Part shown: piece after piece, positions 2,210 through 48,510 of the stretch | Numbering within the stretch: position 1 is the stretch's first letter | Layout: every line of letters starts with the position of its first letter | DNA from: Acidobacteriota bacterium | Lineage (GTDB): Bacteria > Acidobacteriota > Vicinamibacteria > Vicinamibacterales > 2-12-FULL-66-21 | NCBI GenBank assembly: GCA_016184105.1 | Contig: JACPDI010000021.1 | Coordinates: 62,001-126,000 of the forward strand | Direction of reading: 5' to 3' | DNA length: 64,000 nucleotides | Made by a program: the position numbers and the translations under genes | Notes under the pieces: generated by a model | The model's input: the letters and a program-made list of their open reading frames with translations, nothing else | Database searches by the model: none | Told to the model about the DNA's origin: nothing

Positions 2210-3553
2210 ATGGTCGATCCGCTCATCGTGCCGCGCTCCGAGCACACGATCTCGAGACGCGCCATCGATGCGGACGCGCTCAAGGTTCTCTACCGGCTCA
2301 AACAGCACAACCATCTCGCGTATCTGGTGGGCGGCAGCGTCCGCGACCTGCTCCTCGACCGGCACCCCAAAGACTACGACGTCGGCACCTCCGCGCACCC
2401 GTACGAGGTCAAGCGGCTGTTCCGGAACTGCTGGATCATCGGCCGCCGTTTCCGCCTGGCGCACGTCCGGTTCGGCCCGAACAAGGTGATCGAGGTCGCG
2501 ACCTTCCGCAGGAAGGCGGAGCCGGGGGAGATGCCGATGCCGGATGCGACGGCCGCCCCCGCAGCCGATCACCGGCTGGTCCACCGCGACAACACGTTCG
2601 GAACGCCCGAGGAAGACGCGTTCCGCCGCGACTTCACCGTCAACGCTCTCTTCTATGACATCGAGACGTTCTCGATCATCGATTACGTCGGCGGGATGGC
2701 GGACCTGCGGAACCGCGTGCTCAGGAGCATCGGCGATCCGAACGAGCGCTTCCTCGAGGACCCCGTGCGCATGCTGCGCGCCGTTGTGCTCGCCGAGCGG
2801 CTGGATTTTTCGATCGACCCCGCGAGCCTCGATGCCGTCGCGAGACACGGCGCCGAGATCACCAAGGCGTCGCCGGCGCGCATGCTCGAGGAGTACTACA
2901 AGATCCTGCGCTCAGGCGCGTCGGAACGCATCTTCCGCCGGCTGGCGGACGTGGACCTGCTGCGCCACATCAGCCCCGAGCTGGTCGATCCGCCCGACGA
3001 GGTGTGGCAGTCCCTGGAGGAGCTGGACGAGTACCGCGCGCGTTTCACCTCCGCCCCCGACACGCTCACGAACCCGATTCTGATCGGGTCGCTGCTCGCG
3101 CCGCTCGGGATGATGTCCCGCCGGCCGCGCCGCCGGCACGAGGAGCCGGAAGGGGAGACCCCTCGCGCCCGGCCGCCGAAGCCGCCGCGCCTCTCGCTCG
3201 GCATGCTGCCGATCGCGCGCGGCGACGTCGAGCATCTCCGGCACATCCTGGCGCTGCAGTCGCGGCTCGCCGAGCAGCCCCCCTCGCCGCGCGCGCAGCG
3301 GTCGCTCATGCACCGGTCGACGTTCGCCGACGCGATGACCTGGATGGACATTCACGGCCAGTATCCCGAGGCCGTGCAGCACTGGCGCGGTGTCCGCGAA
3401 GCGGCCGGCGACGAGATCGTCCCCGAACAGCGCCACCGCCGGCGACGTCGCCGCAGGCGGCGACGCGGGCCGAGGCCGGGGGTGGTGCCGGAGTGGGGTT
3501 CAGGGTTCAGGGTTCAGGGTTCAGGGTTCTCGACGCGATTTCAGGGGACATAG
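2210..3553 (+). CDS. pcnB: poly(A) polymerase / CCA-adding-type nucleotidyltransferase
   Basis: Class II tRNA nucleotidyltransferase-fold enzyme that adds 3' adenylates to RNA. The head domain holds the metal motif LVGGSVRDLLLDRHPKDYDV (about residues 40-60). It is followed by the CRNW-like segment LFRNCWIIGRRFRLAHV typical of PcnB rather than CCA enzymes, then by the RRDFTVNAL and EDPVRMLRAV motifs. After residue about 400 the protein ends in an arginine run and then a low-complexity Gly/Ser/Phe tail encoded by a GGGTTCA heptamer array, so the tail looks acquired. The stop overlaps the stop of the convergent TonB receptor by 13 nt. The start is set by the TATAAT 8 nt upstream (likely leaderless). 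Confidence 0.9.
   Translation: MVDPLIVPRSEHTISRRAIDADALKVLYRLKQHNHLAYLVGGSVRDLLLDRHPKDYDVGTSAHPYEVKRLFRNCWIIGRRFRLAHVRFGPNKVIEVATFRRKAEPGEMPMPDATAAPAADHRLVHRDNTFGTPEEDAFRRDFTVNALFYDIETFSIIDYVGGMADLRNRVLRSIGDPNERFLEDPVRMLRAVVLAERLDFSIDPASLDAVARHGAEITKASPARMLEEYYKILRSGASERIFRRLADVDLLRHISPELVDPPDEVWQSLEELDEYRARFTSAPDTLTNPILIGSLLAPLGMMSRRPRRRHEEPEGETPRARPPKPPRLSLGMLPIARGDVEHLRHILALQSRLAEQPPSPRAQRSLMHRSTFADAMTWMDIHGQYPEAVQHWRGVREAAGDEIVPEQRHRRRRRRRRRRGPRPGVVPEWGSGFRVQGSGFSTRFQGT
3496..3529 (+). repeat. GGGTTCA heptamer array, four units plus a partial
   Basis: Four perfect GGGTTCA units and a fifth GGGTTC lie in the last codons of pcnB. The five GGG runs separated by TTCA loops satisfy the classical G-quadruplex pattern on the plus strand. 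Because the unit is 7 bp, the array is translated in changing frames and supplies part of the PcnB tail. Confidence 0.9.
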
Positions 3554-5676
3554 AACCGCACGCCGGCGCGCGCGGTCCGCGGGGTGCCGATCGTCCTGAC
3601 CGGCGTCCGGCCGACGTCGACCTCCGCATCGAACACGTTCTCCACGGCCACGAACGGCTGGATCCGCCGCAGCGCGACTCCCGCATACAGATCGGCGACG
3701 GTCGCGCGCCTCAGCACGAACTGGTTGCGATCATCGTCGAACTGCGCGCCCGTGGAGCGCACGTCAAGGGTGGCAACGGCGCGTCCCGGCGTCAGCCGCA
3801 ACGACGCGGCCGCGACCCAGCGCGGCACCTGCGGGACGCGACGCCCCGTGAGACCGGGCTCGACGCCGCCGGTGAACCGCGAGTCGAGCAACGCCGCGCT
3901 GGCGGCGAGGGCGGTCCAGCCCGATGGCCGCCACTCGCCCTCGAGCTCAAGACCGCGCGCGCGGATATGACCGGCGTTCTGGCGCTCGCGACTGATGCGC
4001 CCGGCCGCGACGTCAAGCGTCACGTTCGTGATCGCATCGCCCAACTTGGTCCAGAAGCCCACGAGCCGCGCCGATCCGCGAGGCGCGCGCAGCAGCACTC
4101 CCCCCTCGAACGCACCCGCCCGCTCGGGTGTCAGCCGGCCGTTCGCGAAGGTGGTCGTGTTGCCGACCTGGAAGTCGCGATAGAGCTCGTTCAACGTCGG
4201 CGTGCGCCCCGGCCGCGTCCACGAGGCATGCACCGAGACGTGCTCGCCGGCCGACCATGCCGCCGATACGCGCGGCATGACATAGACCCGCTGGCGGCGC
4301 TCGACTCCCGCCGGCCCCGTGGACCACGCGCCCGCACGGGCACCCGCCGCGATCGTCAGCCGGGGCGAAGGGCGGGTGGATATCTGCGCGTACGCCGCGT
4401 AGTCGCGCTGCGACACTTCGGGCTCGCCGTGCGGCGTCGCGACCACGCGCGCCAGGTCGCCTCCCGCCGTCAGCCAGTGGCGGTTCCAGGCGGAGGTCCA
4501 TTGGACAGACGCGGACTGGTGCGCACTCGCGACGCGCTGCCGCGCCGTGAGCATTTCCGCCGCGCGGCCGGCGCGTACGGCGCTGAACGACTGGTCGTAG
4601 TCCACGGTGCCGCCGGAGGCCGCGACGGCCCACGCGCCGGCAGTGCCCGTCCCGCGCGCGCGCGCCGAGACGCTCCGAAGGTTCGTGTCGTTGCGCTGAA
4701 GGGGCGTGCCGTTCGAGCGGTCCTCGTCCAGCGCGCCGGCGCGCACGGCGAGCGACCACCGCTCCGCCCGGCGCTCGATCGAGGCGAGGGCGCTCGAGTA
4801 TTTCACGCCGGCATCGATGTCCACCGGGCCGCGGTCATCGGGCGCCACGACGGGAAATCCATCGAGCACGAATCGCTCGCCGGCTGCAAACGCGCTCCAC
4901 GCCGCGACACGGATTCCGCCATAGACGGTGCCCCGTGCCATCCCGCCCTGTCCCGCCTCGACACCTGCCCGCAGCGTGCCGGCCGCCGGATCCACAGTGA
5001 GGACCTGGATCGTTCCCGCGATCGACTCATGGCCGTACAGCTCGGCGCTCCCGCCCCGTACCACCTCGATGCGATCGATCGCCGCCTGCGGCACGCGGTT
5101 CCAGTAGATCCATCCGCCGAACGGATCGTTCATCGGCACACCGTCGGCCAGCACGAGCGCGCGGCTGGCGCCGGAGGCCGCGAGCCCGCGCAAGCTCGCG
5201 CCCTGCGTCGTCGGGTTTGCCACGCGCGAAGAGGAGCGGCGGAACAGGGAAAACCCGGGCACGCTGCGCAGCGCGTCATCGGCGGTGAGCGCGGCAGAGG
5301 TCAGCAGGATGCTGGCGGGAAGGACGGCAGTCGCCGTCGCGGTCGCCGCGAGCCGCTCCTGCGATCGCGCCGCTGTGACGGTGAGCGATTCGGCGATGCC
5401 GGCCGGTTGCAGCACGATGCGCAGGACGGCGGGCGCGCGAACGCGCGCCGCGTAGTCGGCATAGCCCTGCGCGCGCACCGTGAGCGTGGCTTCGGGTCCG
5501 CCGGCGTCCAGGCTGAACGCGCCACGCGCGTCGGTGGCGACGCTGCGTCCGTCGGACGAGACGCTGGCCCCCGCGACAGAGGTGCCGGTCACGTCGACGA
5601 TGACTCCGCGAAGCTGGGTTGGAGAAACCGGCTGCGCCGCGAATGCGGCCAGCAAGGCGACGAGCGCGGGGTTCAT
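3541..5676 (-). CDS. TonB-dependent outer-membrane receptor
   Basis: 711-residue outer-membrane transporter driven by TonB. Order: signal peptide (about 1-15), carboxypeptidase-regulatory-like beta-sandwich (about 20-85), plug domain with LADGVPMNDPFGG and IDRIEVVRGGSAELYG (about 175-210), then a 22-strand-type barrel with alternating short beta segments. The plug is closest in style to BtuB/FepA-type receptors, but the ligand cannot be read from sequence. No cobalamin riboswitch is visible upstream: only 43 nt separate it from the desaturase stop, and they hold a perfect stem-loop (5679-5714). The last residue is Pro rather than the usual aromatic residue that favours barrel assembly. Confidence 0.88.
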   Translation of the reverse strand: MNPALVALLAAFAAQPVSPTQLRGVIVDVTGTSVAGASVSSDGRSVATDARGAFSLDAGGPEATLTVRAQGYADYAARVRAPAVLRIVLQPAGIAESLTVTAARSQERLAATATATAVLPASILLTSAALTADDALRSVPGFSLFRRSSSRVANPTTQGASLRGLAASGASRALVLADGVPMNDPFGGWIYWNRVPQAAIDRIEVVRGGSAELYGHESIAGTIQVLTVDPAAGTLRAGVEAGQGGMARGTVYGGIRVAAWSAFAAGERFVLDGFPVVAPDDRGPVDIDAGVKYSSALASIERRAERWSLAVRAGALDEDRSNGTPLQRNDTNLRSVSARARGTGTAGAWAVAASGGTVDYDQSFSAVRAGRAAEMLTARQRVASAHQSASVQWTSAWNRHWLTAGGDLARVVATPHGEPEVSQRDYAAYAQISTRPSPRLTIAAGARAGAWSTGPAGVERRQRVYVMPRVSAAWSAGEHVSVHASWTRPGRTPTLNELYRDFQVGNTTTFANGRLTPERAGAFEGGVLLRAPRGSARLVGFWTKLGDAITNVTLDVAAGRISRERQNAGHIRARGLELEGEWRPSGWTALAASAALLDSRFTGGVEPGLTGRRVPQVPRWVAAASLRLTPGRAVATLDVRSTGAQFDDDRNQFVLRRATVADLYAGVALRRIQPFVAVENVFDAEVDVGRTPVRTIGTPRTARAGVRFYVP

Positions 5677-47816: not shown

Positions 47817-47866
47817 TTGAATTTGGTGATCTGGTGATCGGCAAATTACCAAATCACCAAATTCAA
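47817..47866. terminator. AT-rich stem-loop between convergent genes
   Basis: Arms TTGAATTTGGTGAT (47817-47830) and ATCACCAAATTCAA (47853-47866), a perfect 14-bp stem with a 22-nt loop that itself carries GGTGAT/TACC words. It begins 5 nt after the M48 stop; the right arm contains the final TGA of the rhodanese gene. Likely bidirectional terminator. One of the few AT-rich stretches in the window. Confidence 0.7.
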
Positions 47867-48255
47867 GGTTTGCCTCCCGTAACGACCTCCCCTCCGCTCG
47901 TCAGCCACTTGTCGTAGCCACCAATCAACGCGCGAACATTCGGGACGCCGGCGTTCCGCATCGTGAGCGCCGCACCGGCGCTCGTGTGCTCGCTGGGTCA
48001 ACTGCAGTAGGTGACGAGCGCCTGCTTTTCCTTCCGCAGTTCGGGGATGGCCGCCTCGACGCGGTCGAGCGGCAGCCAGCGGGCGCCAGCGATGTGACCT
48101 GCGAGGTACGACTGCTCACCGCGCGTGTCGAGGACGATGACCTGGCCCGCGTCGTACAGCTTCCTGAACTCGTCGTAGCTGATGCGCAGCGCGGGCGAAT
48201 CCACCGTCAGCGGCTGCGCCTGGATCGCCAGCGAGAGGACACATGCGAGCAGCAT
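47863..48255 (-). CDS. periplasmic rhodanese-domain protein with in-frame UGA at the catalytic cysteine (candidate selenoprotein)
   Basis: Signal peptide (MLLACVLSLAIQAQP), then a rhodanese domain: RISYDEFRKLYDAGQVIVLD, RGEQSYLAGHIAGARWLPL, ALVTYCS. Codon 86 is TGA (48000 to 47998), followed in the same frame by PSEHTSAGAALTMRNAGVPN and RALIGGYDKWL, the normal second half of a rhodanese, ending at TGA 47865-47863. With codon 86 read through, the protein has 130 residues. Homologues as I recall them have CPxE.xSA at this place, so TGA replaces the catalytic Cys. A 7-bp stem with loop GGUGC follows 21 nt after the UGA. Either Sec is inserted or this is a fresh nonsense mutation truncating at residue 85. 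Coupled to the YHS gene (1 nt gap). Confidence 0.75.
47965..47983 (-). promoter_or_regulatory. SECIS-like hairpin after the rhodanese UGA
   Basis: On the minus strand GAGCGCC-GGTGC-GGCGCTC forms a perfect 7-bp stem and a 5-nt loop beginning GG. The loop starts 21 nt after the UGA. Bacterial SECIS elements lie directly downstream of the UGA and need a G in the apical loop. In GC-rich DNA such stems also arise by chance, so this is suggestive only. Confidence 0.45.
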
Positions 48256-48256
48256 C

Positions 48257-48409
48257 TCAACCCTTCTTGCTCAGGTAGTGCTCGGGATCTGCGTCAAACT
48301 TCCTCTTGCAGCCCTGCATGCAGAAGTAATAGGTCTGCCCCTTGTAGTCACTCTTGGCGGGCGCCGTCTTCTCGTCCACCGTCATCCCGCACACCGGATC
48401 TTTCGCCAT
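48257..48409 (-). CDS. YHS-domain metal-binding protein
   Basis: 50 residues, essentially one YHS domain: DPVCGMTVDEKTAPAKSDYK with Cys7, then YYFCMQGCKRKF with Cys30 and Cys34, the usual metal-binding cysteines. ATG 48409 chosen because AAGGAAGGTGG lies just upstream. Cytoplasmic. Starts the operon with the rhodanese; YHS and rhodanese modules are often associated in metal or sulfur handling. A minus-strand TATAGA/GATTAT box lies 60-70 nt upstream. Confidence 0.85.
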   Translation of the reverse strand: MAKDPVCGMTVDEKTAPAKSDYKGQTYYFCMQGCKRKFDADPEHYLSKKG

Positions 48410-48510
48410 CGTCCACCTTCCTTGTCCCTCGTGCCCCCGTGAGCCTTGTGTCTCCATGATACCGCCTCTATAATCGCGCCCCTGCCGCGGTCATGAACAG
48501 CCTGACTCGC

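Follow-up and report, generated by a model that had tools for sequence, protein, structure and literature searches.

A predicted CxU rhodanese selenoprotein in the Vicinamibacterales

Introduction

An in-frame TGA within an otherwise intact coding sequence can be read either as the end of the gene or as a codon for selenocysteine (Sec). The locus described here raises this question for a small rhodanese. It lies in a window of 64,000 nt, the whole stretch of DNA that was analyzed, taken from a draft Acidobacteriota genome of the order Vicinamibacterales. A sequence-only reading of the window had proposed that the gene encodes a selenoprotein with UGA exactly at the catalytic cysteine and that, coupled to an adjoining YHS gene, it would form a new sulfur/selenium or metal-handling pair. 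If the UGA is decoded as Sec, the next questions are where the residue sits relative to the rhodanese active site, whether such proteins are already known, and what the residue may do.

The interrupted reading frame and its product

The features of the gene, in coordinates of the window, are as follows:

47863..48255, minus strand: Sec-rhodanese gene, 130 residues when read through, predicted Sec at codon 86; hydrophobic N-terminal leader and one rhodanese domain
48004..48006, minus strand: TGC codon for Cys84, which corresponds to the canonical catalytic persulfide Cys according to the alignment and the structural model, in which it follows beta strand 79-83
47998..48000, minus strand: in-frame TGA, predicted Sec86, in the motif Y-C84-S-U86-P-S-E-H-T-S-A
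47965..47983, minus strand: SECIS-like hairpin with stem GAGCGCC / GGCGCUC and loop GGUGC, 14 nt past the TGA

The frame runs from ATG at 48255-48253 to a terminal stop at 47865-47863 and contains a single in-frame TGA (codon 86, 48000-47998). When it is read through this codon, PF00581 (Rhodanese) matches residues 27-118 with 58.9 bits (E 7e-16; gathering threshold 22.2 bits), a match that spans the TGA. The interrupted rhodanese frame of the sequence-only reading is borne out. An AlphaFold model built with an alignment of the locus homologues contains one well-formed rhodanese domain (pLDDT 93.5), with a strand at 79-83 that leads through a loop containing residues 84-89 to a helix starting at residue 90; its top fold matches in the PDB are rhodaneses. 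The N-terminal leader, MLLACVLSLAIQAQ, had been taken for a signal peptide. It is a plausible one, but it lacks a basic n-region, and clearer signal peptides occur in many relatives. The product is a small, single-domain and probably exported rhodanese, which ordinary gene calling would truncate at residue 85.

Decoding of the UGA

The genome holds the machinery that decoding would require, as expected for a selenoprotein-encoding organism. SelA (494 bits, contig C4, both pieces in one frame), SelB (356 bits, at the end of contig C52), SelD (352 bits, contig C12) and tRNA-Sec (56.9 bits, contig C47; anticodon UCA by ARAGORN) were all found. The selD gene (G000:C12:83064-83993, L019) is itself broken by one in-frame TGA, within ...YAACAGUASK..., and thus SelD of this genome is likely a selenoprotein as well.

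Homologues of the Sec-rhodanese were found in 39 of 162 genomes sampled across the order. At the Sec86 codon, TGA occurs in 24 of these 39, and a stop is absent from the remaining 15; every codon examined at this position in the non-TGA genomes of the order is TGC or TGT. Of the 24 UGA genomes, 23 have a selA match, vs 101 of the 138 other genomes of the order (Fisher p 0.009); the one UGA genome without a match, G032, is 81% complete. Among 60 tabulated homologues, 44 carry TGA and 16 carry TGC or TGT, so that the position is always U or Cys. The same TGA recurs in homologues from public assemblies assigned to Acidobacteria, Vicinamibacterales, Pyrinomonas, Anaerolineae and Chloroflexi; the Vicinamibacterales homologue L094 has a domain identical to that of L033, a locus of the order. 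Selective constraint extends past the codon: in three close pairs (L047, L050, L051), dN/dS downstream of the TGA is ~0.1. This estimate excludes the comparisons of the window with L025 and L026, in which an indel follows the TGA and makes dN/dS invalid.

Several genomes carry additional copies. G102 has one Cys copy and one UGA copy of the rhodanese (L037; the second copy at C300:5154-5501), and G002 has two UGA copies, the second at C144:24097-24420. On an Anaerolineae contig (L097:3756-4687), the ORF immediately after a UGA rhodanese has a lipoprotein-like leader and resembles a second rhodanese.

The downstream hairpin provides a further line of evidence. Its stem comprises 7 bp; with G25-C29 as an eighth pair, the loop would shrink to a GUG triloop. 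The 7-bp stem and the GGUGC loop described by the sequence-only reading both exist; the distance of 21 nt given there for the stem is that from the TGA to the loop, and the stem begins at 14 nt. Bacterial SECIS elements are described as having a loop of 3-9 nt, a stem of 4-16 bp, a G in the first two loop positions and a UGA-to-loop distance of 16-37 nt (PMC13188914). With a 7-bp stem, a 5-nt loop, a loop G and a spacing of 21 nt, the hairpin agrees with these published values in place, loop size and loop G, as had been suggested.

At the hairpin, UGA and Cys homologues part ways. In the 44 UGA homologues, conservation of codons +6 to +10 reaches down to single bases: Ala is GCC in 44/44, Ser is AGC in 41/44 and Ala is GCG in 40/43, while the hairpin Arg codon is CGT in 25/33, although CGT makes up 10% of the Arg codons in the remainder of these genes. 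The 16 Cys homologues have mixed codons and residues at these positions and do not keep the hairpin. The three close pairs (L047, L050, L051) have a synonymous difference of 0 within the SECIS codons and of 0.27-0.54 outside them. The loop G, at the second loop position, and the two innermost stem pairs are invariant in the 44 UGA homologues; the third pair varies once (to G-U), and the fourth shows a C-G to U-A exchange in three sequences. With a stem that hardly varies, little covariation can be seen. Distant homologues do not preserve the outer pairs, and RNAalifold across the phylum supports the inner four pairs only. A covariance model of the hairpin (R1) gave 39-57 bits on six UGA loci, none of which had been used in building it, whereas scores for Cys loci did not exceed 13.9 bits; within the genome, the 48-nt element is unique by covariance model (56.1 bits, next best 18.7). 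By itself, the minimum free energy of these 48 nt is unremarkable (z -0.9), since the region is G+C-rich. The case for a SECIS element is decided by sequence conservation, not by folding energy.

In an alternative explanation, the TGA genuinely terminates the frame, or reflects faulty sequencing or assembly or a recent nonsense mutation, and the gene is a dying pseudogene that yields an 85-residue fragment. Under translation table 11 the frame is formally closed at 48000-47998, and the genome is a draft in 69 contigs. Against this, the same TGA, frame and hairpin occur in 43 further homologues from many families and independent assemblies, protein-level constraint persists beyond the codon, and the hairpin is kept at synonymous sites in the UGA copies only. 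Recurrence across independent assemblies rules out a pseudogene or sequencing error for practical purposes, and this explanation is now highly improbable. Since both the UGA and the downstream hairpin recur in dozens of relatives, the codon is, to judge from comparative evidence, almost certainly read as selenocysteine. The proposal of a candidate selenoprotein is therefore supported by the Sec machinery of the genome, by TGA at the same codon in relatives and by the conserved SECIS element.

Position of the selenocysteine

The sequence-only reading had placed the UGA exactly at the catalytic cysteine. Pairwise searches against PDB chains and alignment with the homologous loci show that Cys84, invariant in all rows of the alignment, corresponds to the canonical rhodanese catalytic Cys; therefore, its title was wrong on the position of the UGA. 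Sec86 lies two residues past Cys84, in an active-site loop two residues longer than the canonical CxxGxR. A replacement of the persulfide Cys by Sec is ruled out by this alignment. The observation of a Cys two residues before the UGA (Cys-Ser-UGA) was right, and the rhodanese loop carries a CxU motif in the form C84-S-U86. The present analysis thus corrects the interpretation of Sec as a substitute for the persulfide cysteine.

Relation to known rhodanese selenoproteins

Rhodaneses with a CxU motif have already been catalogued in reviews as "rhodanese-like domain-containing protein form 3", model NF041203 (PMC9312934, PMC13188914). This model (rhodanese_LYCAU) is the best NCBIfam match of the Sec-rhodanese, with 65.6 bits, under the curated cut-off of 115 bits. 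In a sample of 396 genomes from the phylum, a single one passes that cut-off (L054), and nearly all homologues in the phylum fall below it. Like form 3 (example TKB26178.1), the proteins considered here combine a rhodanese domain, Cys-x-Sec after the same strand, a UGA with a downstream hairpin and a mixture of Sec and Cys members. In contrast to it, the order-level clade scores below the cut-off and has the motif YCSU or YCAU with TSAGAA or TSARAA; in a tree this clade is separate from L054, with weak deep branches. Given its best match to NF041203 below the cut-off, the predicted Sec-rhodanese joins the catalogued CxU rhodanese selenoproteins as a member outside the curated core. The suggestion of novelty consequently holds only at the level of a new family member.

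Other relatives are more distant. Canonical single-domain rhodaneses (PF00581; GlpE 1gmx, Alr3790 3ilm, BH2092 3nhv) share the fold and the catalytic Cys, but their loop is two residues shorter and lacks a second thiol or selenol at +2. Further rhodanese selenoproteins, forms 1, 2 and 4 (UxxS or UxxG) and TsoB, are known (PMC13188914). These also have a rhodanese domain with Sec; however, they are either DsbD fusions or have a motif starting with Sec (UxxG/UxxS), whereas here Cys comes first and Sec follows at +2. A literature search found no experimental or biochemical study of a CxU rhodanese. The present work adds to this family a well-supported clade that is apparently widespread in Acidobacteria.

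Genomic neighborhood

Two kinds of neighboring gene were considered, a YHS gene and a GlcD-like FAD-linked oxidase gene:

48257..48457, minus strand, in the window: gene of a YHS-domain protein (66 aa) that ends one nucleotide before the Sec-rhodanese ATG; adjacent in the window's genome only
L025, L027, L031-L033, L038, L042-L045, L047-L051: loci bearing the FAD-linked oxidase (partial match only at L027)
2348-3865, at L088: FAD-linked oxidase gene

The sequence-only reading had coupled the Sec-rhodanese to the YHS protein as a new pair. This did not survive comparison: no YHS gene adjoins the rhodanese at any of the ~100 other loci compared, and in L088, from the same family, the YHS homologue lies ~1.7 kb from the rhodanese with the oxidase gene in between. 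The pair was accordingly rejected as a conserved feature, the adjacency being local to the window. A Sec-containing YHS selenoprotein is known (NF041384, GxU) and shares the YHS domain with the neighbor; unlike it, the window's YHS gene has no in-frame UGA, nor does it have an NCBIfam match, and its product is an ordinary YHS protein.

A more frequent neighbor is the FAD-linked oxidase, which is encoded divergently upstream of the rhodanese at 15 of 30 order-level loci (12 Sec, 3 Cys). Its gene starts ~330-450 nt upstream on the opposite strand, and the protein matches FAD_binding_4 (PF01565) and FAD-oxidase_C (PF02913) while falling below the GlcD equivalog cut-offs. Sec and Cys exchange at syntenic loci adjoining this same oxidase. 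The occurrence of both Sec and Cys orthologues at a single syntenic position, with or without a SECIS element, amounts to a natural experiment on the use of selenium by rhodaneses. In the window's genome no oxidase gene lies beside the Sec-rhodanese, and the genome holds only distant GlcD-type paralogues (45 bits). The simplest reading would be that loss of the oxidase brought the YHS and rhodanese genes together. On a broader view, the CxU rhodanese and the oxidase of the Vicinamibacterales could constitute a divergent module in which Sec and Cys exchange at one syntenic site, an undescribed system whose substrate would be thiol- or persulfide-linked. The window's rhodanese would then have lost its oxidase partner and come to lie by the YHS gene. 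This proposal is rather doubtful.

Possible mechanism and alternative roles

During translation, the hairpin that starts 14 nt downstream would recruit SelB with tRNA-Sec, and the ribosome would then read the UGA as Sec. In the mature enzyme, Cys84, the usual rhodanese nucleophile, may accept sulfane sulfur or become oxidized. Sec86, placed in the lengthened loop, could attack Cys84 to form a Cys84-Sec86 selenenylsulfide, releasing sulfide or a reduced product, after which cellular thiols would recycle the enzyme. The protein would then act as a redox-resolving sulfurtransferase or a thiol/selenol oxidoreductase, rather than as a simple thiosulfate:cyanide sulfurtransferase. This resolving role for the CxU motif is put forward tentatively, at less than even confidence.

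Equally tentative is the view that the protein is a plain sulfurtransferase acting through Cys84, in which Sec86 merely tunes the active site or binds a soft metal and no selenenylsulfide forms. Retention of Cys84 and of the rhodanese DxR, GG and W features agrees with such a role; however, the canonical CxxGxR loop is absent, its counterpart being two residues longer, and in the tabulated homologues position 86 is never Ser or any residue other than U or Cys. For the metal-binding form of this view, a Cys-x-U/Cys motif could indeed also hold a soft metal or metalloid, and a YHS domain gene adjoins in the window, but that adjacency is not conserved. The Sec-rhodanese might instead serve the neighboring oxidase, e.g., by removing a harmful by-product such as a thiol or persulfide, or by keeping the oxidase reduced. 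The divergent arrangement with both Sec and Cys forms (L027 being a partial match) speaks for this role, whereas the window's genome, with distant GlcD-type paralogues only, has no oxidase neighbor, and thus the rhodanese can persist without the oxidase. Such a service to the oxidase is unlikely.

An inverted repeat beyond the gene

A long inverted repeat, TTGAATTTGGTGAT...ATCACCAAATTCAA (47818-47866; fold z -7.7), overlaps the real stop of the Sec-rhodanese and sits between this gene and a convergent upstream gene on the plus strand. Elsewhere in the genome, related ACCAAATCACCAAATT units are present at several sites, with 11 matches in total vs 0 for the control.
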